From NCBI GenBank assembly GCA_022239325.1, contig JAKOGP010000004.1, forward strand, positions 124,001 to 188,000: a DNA stretch of 64,000 nucleotides, written 5' to 3'. Below the pieces are notes generated by a model. That model made no database searches and was not told the DNA's origin. It saw nothing but the letters and a program-made list of their open reading frames with translations. Position 1 is the stretch's first letter; every line of letters begins with the position of its first letter. A program made the translations under genes and the position numbers. The DNA is from Flavobacteriaceae bacterium LSUCC0859. Its GTDB lineage: Bacteria > Bacteroidota > Bacteroidia > Flavobacteriales > Flavobacteriaceae. Below are positions 5,466 to 22,260 of this stretch, in pieces.

Positions 5466-5477
5466 TTATCTATTTAT

Positions 5478-5553
5478 TATTGAGGAAGGATTTGACTGAT
5501 TGCAACCTCTTTATTTTGGCCTCCGGCCGATGTAAAAAAATGCTAAAGCAGTT
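5478..5553 (+). promoter_or_regulatory. SAM-II-like riboswitch upstream of metK
   Basis: The conserved SAM-II blocks appear in order. P1 left arm GAGG is at 5482-5485, GATTTG at 5489-5494, ATTGCAA at 5499-5505, P1 right arm CCTC at 5506-5509, and GCTAAA at 5542-5547. The loop sequence ACTG (5495-5498) can pair with CAGT (5549-5552), giving the pseudoknot that defines this class. A small extra hairpin, GGCC-TCC-GGCC (5518-5528), sits in the connecting loop. The aptamer begins about ten bases after the predicted transcript start. High SAM would be expected to lower metK expression. No Shine-Dalgarno site overlaps the 3' arm, so how it acts is unclear. Confidence 0.75.
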
Positions 5554-5626
5554 CACCACATGTTCCATGTTGTGATCACCACCCGCTAAGATGTCAAGCC
5601 CCAACTCGTCAAAAAAAAAAGACGCA

Positions 5627-6956: not shown

Positions 6957-7097
6957 TAGTTATCAAGAAAGGCGGAGGGAGTAGACCCTATGAAGCCTTA
7001 GCAACCCTTTGCCCCATGCAATGAAGGTGCTACATTCTATCCCATAGGGAATAGATAACGTGAACGCTTACGGACGGTAAGCCTAACTTTCTTTTTT
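6957..7097 (+). promoter_or_regulatory. SAM-I (S-box) riboswitch
   Basis: The S-box core is present in order: TTATCAAGAAAGGCGGAGGG, then CCCTATGAAGCCTTAGCAAC, then AAGGTGCTACATTC. P1 forms between AAGAAAG (6965-6971) and CTTTCTT (7087-7093). P3 is a hairpin around CTATCCC-ATA-GGGAATAG, and P4 is GCTTAC-GGACG-GTAAGC. It binds S-adenosylmethionine and should switch off the five-gene methionine operon downstream when SAM is abundant. Confidence 0.95.
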
Positions 7098-18112: not shown

Positions 18113-18142
18113 ATTGATTATTAAATATAATAATTACATTAG
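18113..18142 (+). promoter_or_regulatory. Probable promoter of the aromatic operon
   Basis: ATTG at 18113-18116 is followed after 18 bases by TACATTAG (18135-18142), one mismatch from TAnnTTTG. Transcription would start near 18149, about 12 bases before the leader-peptide ATG. Confidence 0.45.
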
Positions 18143-18160
18143 CTTTTTATTGACAAATAA

Positions 18161-18235
18161 ATGATTTTACAAAGCACATTCTGGAACCGTTTTTTCTTTT
18201 ACTTCTATTTTAATAGAAGTACGAGACTTTTCTAG
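18161..18235 (+). CDS. Phe/Tyr-rich leader peptide of the aromatic operon
   Basis: An ATG at 18161 opens a 24-codon frame ending TAG (18233-18235). The peptide has seven Phe, two Tyr and one Trp, with the run FFFYFYF at residues 11-17 and an ending NRSTRLF. The Phe/Tyr codons (about 18191-18211) overlap the first arm of the attenuator hairpin, and the stop lies between arms 2 and 3. This is the arrangement of classical pheA-type leader peptides. Low charged tRNA-Phe or tRNA-Tyr would stall the ribosome there. The peptide itself probably has no other function. Confidence 0.8.
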   Translation: MILQSTFWNRFFFYFYFNRSTRLF

Positions 18236-18291
18236 GATTTTGCATACATCATAACCCTATTATAAGTCTCGCAATTGCGAGATTTTTTTTT
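18201..18291 (+). promoter_or_regulatory. Transcription attenuator (arms 1-4) before pheA
   Basis: Arm 1 ACTTCTAT (18201-18208) pairs with ATAGAAGT (18213-18220). Arm 2 CGAGACTT (18222-18229) pairs perfectly with arm 3 AAGTCTCG (18264-18271), forming the antiterminator. Arm 3-4 TCTCGC-AATT-GCGAGA (18267-18282), followed by nine T, is a Rho-independent terminator that excludes the antiterminator. A ribosome stalled on the Phe/Tyr codons covers arm 1 and frees arm 2, so the operon is read. One that reaches the stop codon covers arm 2, so the terminator forms. Confidence 0.85.
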
Positions 18292-18299
18292 GACTATAT

Positions 18300-19136
18300 A
18301 TGAAAGAAACCTTAACCATCGCCATACAGGGCATAGCAGGATCTAATCACCACCAGGTGGCTTTGGATTGCTATGGAGACCAGCAGCATATGCTGCCGTG
18401 TCTTTCTTTTCCCGCTTTGGTGCAAAGCTTACTGGAAAACAAAGCAGATAGGGGTGTCATGGCCATTGAAAATTCTATTGCAGGGTCTATTATACCCAAT
18501 TATGCTTTGGTGTACGACAATCAATTACATATTGTTGGCGAGCATTATTTGAACATCCACCACCACCTTATGGCGCTTCCCGGTCAGGATATGTCACAGA
18601 TTAAAGAAGTGCACTCCCATCCTATGGCACTGTTACAGTGCCAGCGTTTTTTTGAAAAACATCCCCATATTCGTTTGGTGGAAGACGTAGACACTGCAGA
18701 GACGGCACAGCGAATTGATCAAAATAAACTGAAAGGTATTGCTGCTGTAGCACCCAAGGTAGCCTCTACATTATACGGTTTAGATATTTTAGCATCGGAT
18801 ATTCAGACCATTCAAAATAACGCTACGCGTTTTATTTTAGTGGCAAAGACAGCCAAAGACTTAGCTAAAAAGGAAATAAATAAAGCCTCCTTGCGATTTG
18901 TGTTGGACCACAAACGCGGTAGTTTAGCTGCGGTACTCAATGTGATGAGCGACTGTAACCTAAACTTAACCAAAATACAATCCCTCCCGGTGATAGACTT
19001 ACCATGGAAGTACGCTTTCTTTGTAGACATCACCTTTGAGCAGTATGAAGATTATACTAAAGCTATGGCTATTTTAGAAATCATGGCTGCTGAATTTAGA
19101 ATTTTAGGGGCTTATAAAAACGCCAGATTAATATGA
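18300..19136 (+). CDS. pheA: Prephenate dehydratase
   Basis: Converts prephenate to phenylpyruvate, the committed step to phenylalanine. The 278-residue protein has the dehydratase domain at about 5-185 (AIENSIAGSI, SHPMALLQCQRF, the catalytic NNATRFILVAK with TRF near 176-178). An ACT domain follows at about 197-275 (LRFVLDHKRGSLAAVL...LNLTKIQSLP) that normally binds phenylalanine. There is no fused chorismate mutase here; that domain sits on the DAHP synthase three genes downstream. It is the first gene behind the attenuator and overlaps the aminotransferase gene by four bases (ATGA). Confidence 0.94.
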   Translation: MKETLTIAIQGIAGSNHHQVALDCYGDQQHMLPCLSFPALVQSLLENKADRGVMAIENSIAGSIIPNYALVYDNQLHIVGEHYLNIHHHLMALPGQDMSQIKEVHSHPMALLQCQRFFEKHPHIRLVEDVDTAETAQRIDQNKLKGIAAVAPKVASTLYGLDILASDIQTIQNNATRFILVAKTAKDLAKKEINKASLRFVLDHKRGSLAAVLNVMSDCNLNLTKIQSLPVIDLPWKYAFFVDITFEQYEDYTKAMAILEIMAAEFRILGAYKNARLI

Positions 19137-20281
19137 ATACAGCCAATAGATTAGCGTCAGTACAGGAATACTACTTCTCTAGAAAACTCAGAGAGGTGCG
19201 GGGCCTATTGGCAGCGGGAAAACCGATCATTAATATGGGAATTGGTAGTCCAGATTTGGCTCCAGATCCCGCTGTGACTCAGGCTATGATAGCTGCCACG
19301 GCCGCGGAAAAAGCGCATCAGTATCAGTCTTATCAGGGGGTTCCTGAATTGAGAGAAGCGATGGCTACATTTTACCAACAGCAGTTTGGGGTGTCTGTTC
19401 ATCCAGAGGATGAAGTGCTACCTCTTATGGGTTCCAAAGAGGGGATTATGCATGTGAGTATGGCCTTTTTAAACCCAGGGGATGGGGTGCTTATTCCAGA
19501 CCCGGGCTACCCCACTTATGCCTCCGTGTCTCATTTGGTGTCCGCTAGGCTCATTCCATACAGGCTGCGTTCGGAAAATGGCTGGTTGCCCAATATTCAA
19601 GAATTAGAAGCCCAGGATTTAAGCGGGGTAAAACTCATGTGGTTGTCCTACCCGCATATGCCCACAGGAGCAGTGGCTTCTCTAGCAGCCTTAACAGACC
19701 TAGTGGCCTTTGCCAAGAAACACGATATATTATTGGTGAACGACAATCCATACAGTTTTATTCTAAACGAGAAGCCTGTGAGTATACTCTCTGTAGCGGG
19801 TGCAGCAGGGCATGTGCTGGAGTTAAATTCACTGAGTAAAACCTTTAATATGGCCGGCTGGCGTGTGGGTATGTTATTGGGAGCTGCCCCGCTTATTCAT
19901 GCCGTTTTAAAGGTGAAGAGCAATATGGACTCAGGAATGTTTTATCCGGTTCAGATGGGGGCAGTAGCAGCCTTAGCTTCGGGCCCTAGTTGGTTCCAAA
20001 GTCTACATACAGTTTATGAAAAACGCAGGGCCTTGGTTTACGAATTAGCTGGCCTTTTAAATTGCACCTATGACCCCAAAGCGGTAGGTCTTTTTGTATG
20101 GGCCGCCCTGCCTGATGGCGCTCCAGACGCAGAGGAATTTATAGATAAGTTGCTGTATGAAAAAGATATTTTCATAACACCAGGGACTATTTTTGGAGTT
20201 GGCGGAACCGGTTATATTCGTTTTTCACTCTGTGTGAGTGAAGACCAAATTCAAAAAGCCATAGACAGAATTAAAGCATAG
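19133..20281 (+). CDS. Class I/II aminotransferase, probably aromatic
   Basis: A 382-residue fold-type-I PLP aminotransferase. NMGIGSPDLAPDPAV forms the N-terminal substrate region, YQGVPELREAMA the dimer loop, LVNDNPYSFIL the cofactor region, and the PLP lysine is near residue 236 in NSLSKTFNMAGWRVG. A conserved arginine is in YIRFSLC near the C-terminus. Its place between prephenate dehydratase and prephenate dehydrogenase, overlapping the first, suggests it forms phenylalanine and tyrosine from their keto acids. That specificity is inferred from context; an aspartate or prephenate aminotransferase is possible. Confidence 0.88.
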   Translation: MNTANRLASVQEYYFSRKLREVRGLLAAGKPIINMGIGSPDLAPDPAVTQAMIAATAAEKAHQYQSYQGVPELREAMATFYQQQFGVSVHPEDEVLPLMGSKEGIMHVSMAFLNPGDGVLIPDPGYPTYASVSHLVSARLIPYRLRSENGWLPNIQELEAQDLSGVKLMWLSYPHMPTGAVASLAALTDLVAFAKKHDILLVNDNPYSFILNEKPVSILSVAGAAGHVLELNSLSKTFNMAGWRVGMLLGAAPLIHAVLKVKSNMDSGMFYPVQMGAVAALASGPSWFQSLHTVYEKRRALVYELAGLLNCTYDPKAVGLFVWAALPDGAPDAEEFIDKLLYEKDIFITPGTIFGVGGTGYIRFSLCVSEDQIQKAIDRIKA

Positions 20282-20283
20282 GC

Positions 20284-21147
20284 ATGAAACAGTTATCAAT
20301 TATAGGAGTAGGTTTAATTGGTGGGTCTTTTGCTAAAGACTTTAGGGAGCTGTTTCCCAAGGCTTCCATTGTAGGCTTGGATAAAAATGAGTCTCACCTT
20401 ACGGAAGCTTTGTCTCTAGGGGTAATAGACAAAGCAGGTGATATGAAGGATTTGTCAGACTCTGATTTGGTTTTTGTGGCCATTCCAGTAGACGCTACAC
20501 TTTCCCTAATATCCGAGATCTTGGATATGGCAGGAGAGCACACCGTGGTAGTAGACGCTGGCTCTACCAAAGCCAGTCTTTGCGAGGCCGTAGCGAAGCA
20601 TGATAAAAGAAGACATTATTTGGCTGCCCACCCCATTGCAGGTACTGAATTTTCAGGACCATCGGCCGCGATAGCAGGCCTCTTTAAAGGAAAGACACAA
20701 ATTATTTGTGAGGTAGAGCAAACAGCTTTTCAATTACAAGAAAAAGCATTAAATGTTTTTAATGCTATGGGCATGCGTATACGCTATATGAACGCCAAGG
20801 CGCACGACAAACACATTGCCTATGTGTCTCATCTATCACATATTAGTTCCTTTATGTTGGGAAAGACTGTGATGGACAAGGAAAAAAATGAAAGGGATAT
20901 CTTTGATATGGCAGGTAGTGGTTTTGAGAGCACAGTTCGTTTGGCCAAGAGTTCGCCGGCCATGTGGGCACCCATTTTTAAAGACAATAAAGAGGCGGTC
21001 TTAGAATCTTTGAATGAATACATATACAACCTCAATGCGTTTAAGACCCTTATGGAGCAGGATGATTTCTCTGGAGTTTTTGAAGAAATGCAGCAAACAA
21101 ACAGAATTAAGGAAATCCTAAATGGCATTCCACATAACAATAAATAA
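20284..21147 (+). CDS. tyrA: Prephenate dehydrogenase (TyrA)
   Basis: Oxidatively decarboxylates prephenate to 4-hydroxyphenylpyruvate on the way to tyrosine. The 287-residue protein has the NAD-binding IGVGLIGGSFAKDF at residues 5-18, DAGSTKASL, the active-site AAHPIAGTEFSGP, and the helical dimer domain with HDKHIAYVSHLSHI. No chorismate mutase is fused to it. It starts two bases after the aminotransferase stop, inside the attenuated operon. Confidence 0.94.
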   Translation: MKQLSIIGVGLIGGSFAKDFRELFPKASIVGLDKNESHLTEALSLGVIDKAGDMKDLSDSDLVFVAIPVDATLSLISEILDMAGEHTVVVDAGSTKASLCEAVAKHDKRRHYLAAHPIAGTEFSGPSAAIAGLFKGKTQIICEVEQTAFQLQEKALNVFNAMGMRIRYMNAKAHDKHIAYVSHLSHISSFMLGKTVMDKEKNERDIFDMAGSGFESTVRLAKSSPAMWAPIFKDNKEAVLESLNEYIYNLNAFKTLMEQDDFSGVFEEMQQTNRIKEILNGIPHNNK

Positions 21148-21177: not shown

Positions 21178-22260
21178 ATGGAGAATTCAAAACAAATGAG
21201 AACTTGGTTAGACAATTTGGGTTTAGACCACCCTTTAGTGATTGCAGGACCTTGTAGCGCAGAGACAGAAGAGCAGGTTTTAAAAATTGCTCACCAGCTC
21301 AAAGACACAGATGTTAATTATTACAGAGCCGGAATCTGGAAACCTAGAACCAAACCGGGTATGTTTGAAGGGGTAGGTGCCCTGGGATTAAAATGGTTAC
21401 AAAAGGTAAAAGCAGAAACCGGATTAAAGACGGCTACTGAGGTGGCCAATAAGGCCCATGTAGAATTGGCTCTGGAGCATGATGTAGACCTGCTGTGGAT
21501 TGGAGCACGTTCTACCGTAAGCCCTTTTATTATTCAAGAAATTGCAGACGCTTTGGAAGGCACGGATAAAATTGTCCTGGTTAAAAACCCAGTAAATCCA
21601 GACTTGGCACTGTGGTTAGGTGCGGTAGAGCGTTTAGCCAATGCCAATATTAAAAATCTTGGAGTTATACACCGTGGTTTTTCTACCTACGAAAAAACCA
21701 AATACAGAAATATTCCAGAGTGGCAACTCCCCATTGAGCTGCAACAAAAATTCCCCGATTTACCTATTATAAATGACCCTTCTCACATTACTGGGAAGCG
21801 TGATATGATTTTTGATGTCTCTCAAACCGCCTTGGATTTAAATTTTGATGGCCTCATGATAGAGACCCACTTTGACCCTGACAATGCATGGAGTGACGCT
21901 GCCCAGCAAGTTACTCCAGCTTCTTTGGTACAGATTATGAAAGATTTAAAAATCAGAAAGGAGTCTTCTTCGGAGGTAGATTACACCTCTGAATTAAAAA
22001 CCTTACGTGCCCAGATAGACATTATAGACAACCAGCTCATAGATACGCTGTCTAAAAGAATGAAGGTGGCAGACGCTATTGGTGCAATTAAAAAATCTCA
22101 AAATGTAGCGGTACTTCAGAGTAACCGTTGGAATGAAATTTTAGGTAAAATGATTTTGGAGGGAGAGTCTAAAGGTTTAAGTGAAGAGTTTGTTCTCAAG
22201 ATGTTTAAGGCCATTCACCAAGAGTCTATAAACCACCAGGAAAAGATCTTAAAGGCCTAA
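21178..22260 (+). CDS. Bifunctional DAHP synthase / chorismate mutase
   Basis: Residues 1-265 are a type I-beta DAHP synthase (AGPCSAETEEQVL, YYRAGIWKPRTKPGMFEG, GARSTVSPF, VIHRGFS, INDPSHITGKRDM, MIETHFDPDNAWSDA). It condenses phosphoenolpyruvate and erythrose-4-phosphate to open the shikimate pathway. Residues from about 270 to 360 are an AroQ chorismate mutase helix bundle (LKTLRAQIDIIDNQLIDTLS...). The one protein supplies the first step of the pathway and the prephenate used by the two dehydrating and dehydrogenating neighbours. Last gene of the aromatic operon. Confidence 0.94.
   Translation: MENSKQMRTWLDNLGLDHPLVIAGPCSAETEEQVLKIAHQLKDTDVNYYRAGIWKPRTKPGMFEGVGALGLKWLQKVKAETGLKTATEVANKAHVELALEHDVDLLWIGARSTVSPFIIQEIADALEGTDKIVLVKNPVNPDLALWLGAVERLANANIKNLGVIHRGFSTYEKTKYRNIPEWQLPIELQQKFPDLPIINDPSHITGKRDMIFDVSQTALDLNFDGLMIETHFDPDNAWSDAAQQVTPASLVQIMKDLKIRKESSSEVDYTSELKTLRAQIDIIDNQLIDTLSKRMKVADAIGAIKKSQNVAVLQSNRWNEILGKMILEGESKGLSEEFVLKMFKAIHQESINHQEKILKA

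Follow-up and report, generated by a model that had tools for sequence, protein, structure and literature searches.

The 64,000-nucleotide stretch of Flavobacteriaceae bacterium LSUCC0859 analyzed here (hereafter the window) carries, in front of pheA, a short open reading frame with a run of phenylalanine and tyrosine codons, and the locus raises the question of whether the ribosome translating this frame decides if the aromatic operon downstream is transcribed, and by what arrangement of the RNA. The leader is real and strongly conserved, and it is very probably a working attenuator; we assign a probability of roughly 0.92 to the reading that the pheA-aminotransferase-tyrA-DAHP synthase operon is under the control of a ribosome-dependent transcription attenuator. 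What is new here is modest, namely the anatomy, the breadth and a quantitative spacing rule, attenuation in the phylum having already been published. Attenuators of Bacteroidetes/Chlorobi are reportedly also mentioned by Vitreschak (FEMS, 2004). According to a survey from 2010, leader-peptide systems were known until then only from Proteobacteria and Actinobacteria, to which the survey added Firmicutes (PMC2965389). Bacteroid-trp (RF01692), a leader-peptide attenuator from the same phylum as the window, was described by Weinberg et al. (2010, PMC2864571), and the main text of a transcriptome study of Flavobacterium psychrophilum reports attenuation-like leaders, suggested to act on amino-acid operons (PMC9723704). 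An earlier note on this DNA, which knew of no published description for the phylum, is contradicted by the latter two sources.

Anatomy of the pheA leader

The leader frame (Table 1) encodes the 24 residues MILQSTFWNRFFFYFYFNRSTRLF, with FFFYFYF at positions 11-17, and ends with TAG at 18233-18235. Arm 2 (CGAGACTT) is the perfect complement of AAGTCTCG at 18264-18271, the core of arm 3 (AAGTCTCGC), which together with arm 4 (GCGAGATTT) forms a terminator hairpin of 9 bp with the loop AATT (18264-18285). The nine-T run occupies 18283-18291 and the pheA ATG is located at 18300. When checked against the sequence, the coordinates given earlier for the leader, the aromatic run, arms 2 and 3, the terminator and the T run were all exact. 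Folding of 18149-18291 yielded an energy of -32.7 kcal/mol, corresponding to z = -5.6 versus dinucleotide shuffles.

Inside the aromatic codons lies another hairpin (hairpin 1). Compared with synonymous recodings, its stability is higher in 83 of 87 leaders, with z = -3.75 in the window. The earlier note had an arm 1 in classic geometry; we found hairpin 1 to abut arm 2, with overlap limited to a weak extension that lies beyond a single mismatch and pairs 18195-18198 with 18223-18226. We infer that hairpin 1 probably acts as an RNA polymerase pause hairpin.

Promoters were searched with a TTG-N15-21-TAnnTTTG-like pattern, with up to one mismatch tolerated in the -7 box. Such sites were present in 58/87 leaders, mostly 18-30 nt 5' of the ATG (shuffles: mean 6.1, maximum 11). 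From the position of the promoter-like site in the window, the transcript is expected to start near 18149 and would thus include the leader.

Table 1. Features of the pheA leader and of the operon downstream, in window coordinates.
Feature	Position	Strand	Details
Leader promoter (putative), Bacteroidota-type	18114..18142	+	TTG 18114-18116, 18 bases, TACATTAG 18135-18142
Leader ORF, MILQSTFWNRFFFYFYFNRSTRLF then stop	18161..18235	+	ATG at 18161; homologs, likewise aromatic and in front of pheA, in 87/90 and 79/79 relatives
Regulatory codons FFFYFYF	18191..18211	+	W8 upstream at 18182-18184
Hairpin 1, in coding sequence	18200..18221	+	arm 1 18200-18209 pairs with arm 1' 18212-18221
Arm 2, antiterminator 5' strand, CGAGACTT	18222..18229	+	complementary to arm 3, covarying
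Arm 3, AAGTCTCGC	18264..18272	+	common to antiterminator and terminator
Arm 4 and nine-T run, intrinsic terminator	18277..18291	+	sequence, folding, relatives
pheA, prephenate dehydratase	18300..19136	+	PF00800; weak ACT-domain match PF01842
Class I/II aminotransferase	19133..20281	+	PF00155
tyrA, prephenate dehydrogenase	20284..21147	+	NF006307 above cut-off; PF02153, PF20463
DAHP synthase / chorismate mutase fusion	21178..22260	+	PF00793, PF01817

Conservation of the leader in relatives

PheA is present in 180 of the 201 genomes of the family, and the regions upstream of pheA were read in 90 of these 180 genomes. At 87 of the 90 loci, pheA has an aromatic-rich leader and then a terminator in front of it; as to the other three, L045 ends at the contig edge, and L052 and L084 are without a recognized aromatic leader. 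A second set of named genomes gave the same arrangement in 79/79 cases. As a control, 537 other long ORF starts from the same loci were inspected: a small aromatic ORF was located upstream of 30, seven of which also had a terminator, and all seven turned out to be pheA itself called from a displaced start, so that the background is 0/530. The combination of aromatic leader and terminator before pheA is therefore not due to chance. The leader frame and the pairing of its arms are kept family-wide, compensating changes included, which is the conservation that the earlier note had proposed to look for in relatives.

The residues of the 87 leaders comprise 25% F, 15% Y and 3% W, and the Flavobacterium pheA loci have leaders of the form M..NRFYFSNSFYFFF. 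The Phe/Tyr codons of the earlier proposal are thus confirmed; its restriction to these two amino acids is not, as Trp is found in 62/87 leaders. This suggests that sensing may extend to all three aromatics, which fits the presence of DAHP synthase in the operon. The distance between the terminator and the ATG of pheA ranges from 3 to 341 nt among the family leaders, which is easier to reconcile with a terminator than with a block of the pheA ribosome site.

Beyond the family, the leaders were used to train a covariance model, which gave matches before pheA both in a second class and in further families of the same class, and reading of the pheA upstream regions across the phylum revealed an aromatic leader with terminator in families f3, f4, f5, f8, f9, f16 and f19. 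In this reading, no leader was seen before pheA in L221 and L229-L237, where pheA is apparently operon-internal or part of a longer frame. At L226 and L228 (families f9 and f5), pheA is preceded in each case by a pair of small ORFs rich in aromatic codons (MLQTRFFFGYYYFYAAA and MVPTQQVFFTYGYYFFYLKKPARCCQC; MAYRSAYYFYFFCFFSSCRG and MGYTYYYFFSLMDHRRLWVV), possibly tandem attenuators. The matches of the covariance model elsewhere in the genome of the window, away from pheA, were plain terminators or unrelated ORFs and were discarded. A leader of the pheA type was not found upstream of ilvD and pheS, and no clear attenuator was recognized for thrA.

Pairing and covariation of the arms

The arm 3 core pairs perfectly with a segment 8-13 nt past the last aromatic codon in 69/86 leaders; the same count was on average 1.9 (maximum 6) for shuffled leaders and 45.7 (maximum 53) when the arm 3s were swapped between leaders. 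Arm 2 starts 10 or 11 nt past the last aromatic codon in most leaders. For the majority, this distance stays within about 8-12 nt, and that between the stop codon and arm 2 varies, as predicted for a switch operated by the edge of the ribosome.

The third pair between arms 2 and 3 is A-U in 37, G-C in 46 and G-U in 3 of 86 leaders. A PheA tree was built from the first 30 family loci together with the named set; on it, five changes are counted at this position in arm 2 and five in arm 3, and all 101 counted leaders have G-C or A-U there. Three of the five coupled changes fall on well-supported branches, the number being too small for a significant sign test. Between the window and its closest relative, L128 (79% PheA identity), arms 2, 3 and 4 change in a coordinated manner, from GAGACT/AGTCTC/GCGAGA to GGGACT/AGTCCC/GCGGGA.

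Arm 2 is read as ACG GGA CT (T-G-L) in clade A and as AAC GAG AC (N-E-T) in clade B, and the stop codon is located before or within arm 2 in five leaders (L025, L032, L035, L048 and L075), indicating that the RNA arm is conserved and its reading changes. An attempt to classify the reading-frame phase of arm 2 by regular expressions was too ambiguous and was dropped. RNAalifold on a MAFFT alignment of 77 sequences recovered the terminator alone, partly because the clades differ by one column in the placement of arm 2 and because a nested prediction cannot hold both uses of arm 3; counts anchored on the arms were used instead.

Modeling of the ribosome position

To follow the fate of arm 3 with the ribosome at each codon, a footprint reaching from 14 nt upstream to 15 nt downstream of the P-site base was masked, and the RNA was folded up to a point just past arm 3. 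The outcome depends on two assumptions, namely that the edge of the ribosome is 15 nt from the P-site base, as general knowledge of footprints suggests, and that the truncated transcript folds to equilibrium. In the window, arm 2 is predicted to capture arm 3 with a probability of 0.98 when the A site is on F11-F17 and of 0.01 at N18. Over 86 leaders, the modeled capture reaches 0.82-0.87 at the aromatic codons and drops to 0.23 after one further codon and to 0.07 after two. The first codon predicted to be OFF directly follows the last aromatic codon in 69 leaders; in 12 it lies one position further on, and in five it coincides with the last aromatic codon. An earlier measure of the switch took the last ON codon; it was distorted when RNA re-paired behind a ribosome at the stop codon, and was replaced. 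In the full-length transcript, stalls at F15-F17 favor the terminator at equilibrium, so that the capture of arm 3 would have to be kinetic there. With no ribosome on the leader of the window, the antiterminator is still favored before arm 4 emerges (0.85), and likewise in most relatives. An untranslated leader is accordingly expected, as a prediction of this model, to be expressed and not super-attenuated.

Taken with the anatomy, the model suggests the following sequence of events. Transcription would start at about 18149 and the leader would be translated at once. When aromatic aminoacyl-tRNAs are scarce, the ribosome would stall on codons 11-17, possibly also at W8, and with its front edge at or before 18221 would leave arm 2 free to capture arm 3 upon emergence; the terminator would then not form and the operon would be read. 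With charged aromatic tRNAs, the ribosome would move on and cover arm 2, arms 3 and 4 would pair, and transcription would stop in the T run. Since hairpin 1 abuts arm 2 and does not overlap it, the role of a protector hairpin is probably taken in this model by the moving ribosome, which masks arm 2. Of the classic four-arm choice proposed earlier, the ribosome-dependent attenuator stands and the geometry does not quite: hairpin 1 can nearly coexist with the antiterminator, and the choice would depend on where the ribosome stands.

Comparison with known leaders

A search of Rfam with the pheA leader gave no match at gathering scores, RF01692 and T-box included, and sub-threshold scores of 23.4 bits for Leu_leader (cut-off 50) and 19.4 bits for Trp_leader (cut-off 41). 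The pheA leader is an element without an Rfam family. It shares with Bacteroid-trp the phylum and the type of attenuator, but the latter has Trp codons and belongs to the trp operon. In F. psychrophilum, a structured element before pheA has been described that is without an Rfam match and conserved in other genera; gene and family are those of the leader studied here, and the main text of that study gives no anatomy or mechanism for the pheA element (PMC9723704).

Like the pheA, trp and his attenuators of E. coli, the flavobacterial leader has a small ORF containing codons for what the operon produces, an antiterminator and a terminator hairpin that form as alternatives, and a T run before the first gene (comparison based on PMC1183508 and general knowledge). 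Unlike in E. coli, arm 2 is usually inside the leader ORF, with the stop codon before or after it, and hairpin 1 abuts arm 2, whereas that of E. coli overlaps most of it. In the flavobacterial model the absence of translation favors antitermination, which is the opposite of E. coli trp.

Other regulatory leaders were noticed in the same genome. Upstream of trpE (L239/L246; G000:C4 ~376,200; L246:670-782), a leader MNTKQKNIWWWNNLQQTL with a terminator matches Rfam Bacteroid-trp at 52.3 bits (cut-off 49). Upstream of hisG (L238/L245; G000:C6 ~151,200), a leader MITKFIHTHHHFTSYAQAR is followed by a terminator hairpin and is a probable His attenuator. In the window itself, a SAM-II (long loop) riboswitch at 5476-5556 precedes an apparent metK (5591), and a SAM-I riboswitch at 6957-7061 precedes a gene for an apparent PLP enzyme of Cys/Met metabolism (7183), which is followed by other methionine genes; two different classes of riboswitch are thus found at neighboring positions.

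Discussion

The conserved leader could in principle act through its peptide instead of its RNA. In a nascent-peptide arrest of the TnaC type, the signal that makes the aromatic peptide stall the ribosome would be a free aromatic amino acid or another ligand, not starvation for tRNA, and the peptide is indeed conserved beyond its mere F/Y content (e.g. YFWN.FYFYFF). However, F and Y both occur at every position of the run from -5 to -1, the tail RGTGL of group A is encoded by arm 2 and gives way to another frame in group B (NET), the tail is lost around the stop in the five leaders with an early stop codon named above, and the conservation at the codon level serves hairpin 1 in part. We therefore regard an arrest peptide as improbable. 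That the ORF is hydrophobic and conserved would also suit a small functional protein next to an unrelated terminator, with pheA unregulated; against this speak the covariation of arms 2 and 3, the fixed spacing to the last aromatic codon, the variable position of the stop codon and the strict linkage to pheA, which make it very improbable.

Least probable is direct binding of a ligand or of tRNA by a riboswitch or T-box, with the ORF there by coincidence. Such an RNA would account for a structured 5' region ahead of a biosynthetic operon, but the leader lacks a match to any such family at gathering scores, its best sub-threshold matches include leader attenuators, and the aromatic codons are conserved. 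The ribosome-dependent attenuator remains our preferred reading, and we infer that it would respond to tRNA charging. Tentatively, we put forward a more detailed design for the whole class, with the ribosome edge as the switch: arm 2 would lie inside the ORF at the distance of one edge from the final aromatic codon, the system would do without a true protector hairpin, codons for all three aromatics (Phe, Tyr and Trp) would be read, and a leader that is not translated would lead to expression, not to super-attenuation; that all of these elements hold jointly has somewhat less than an even chance.

The pheA leader is a well-supported aromatic attenuator at the scale of the phylum that is missing from Rfam, and the set of leaders is a natural series for testing how the ribosome edge sets an RNA switch. 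The attenuator implies tight coupling of transcription and translation at the pheA leader in Bacteroidota, and it predicts regulation of the entire Phe/Tyr branch across a large bacterial group.
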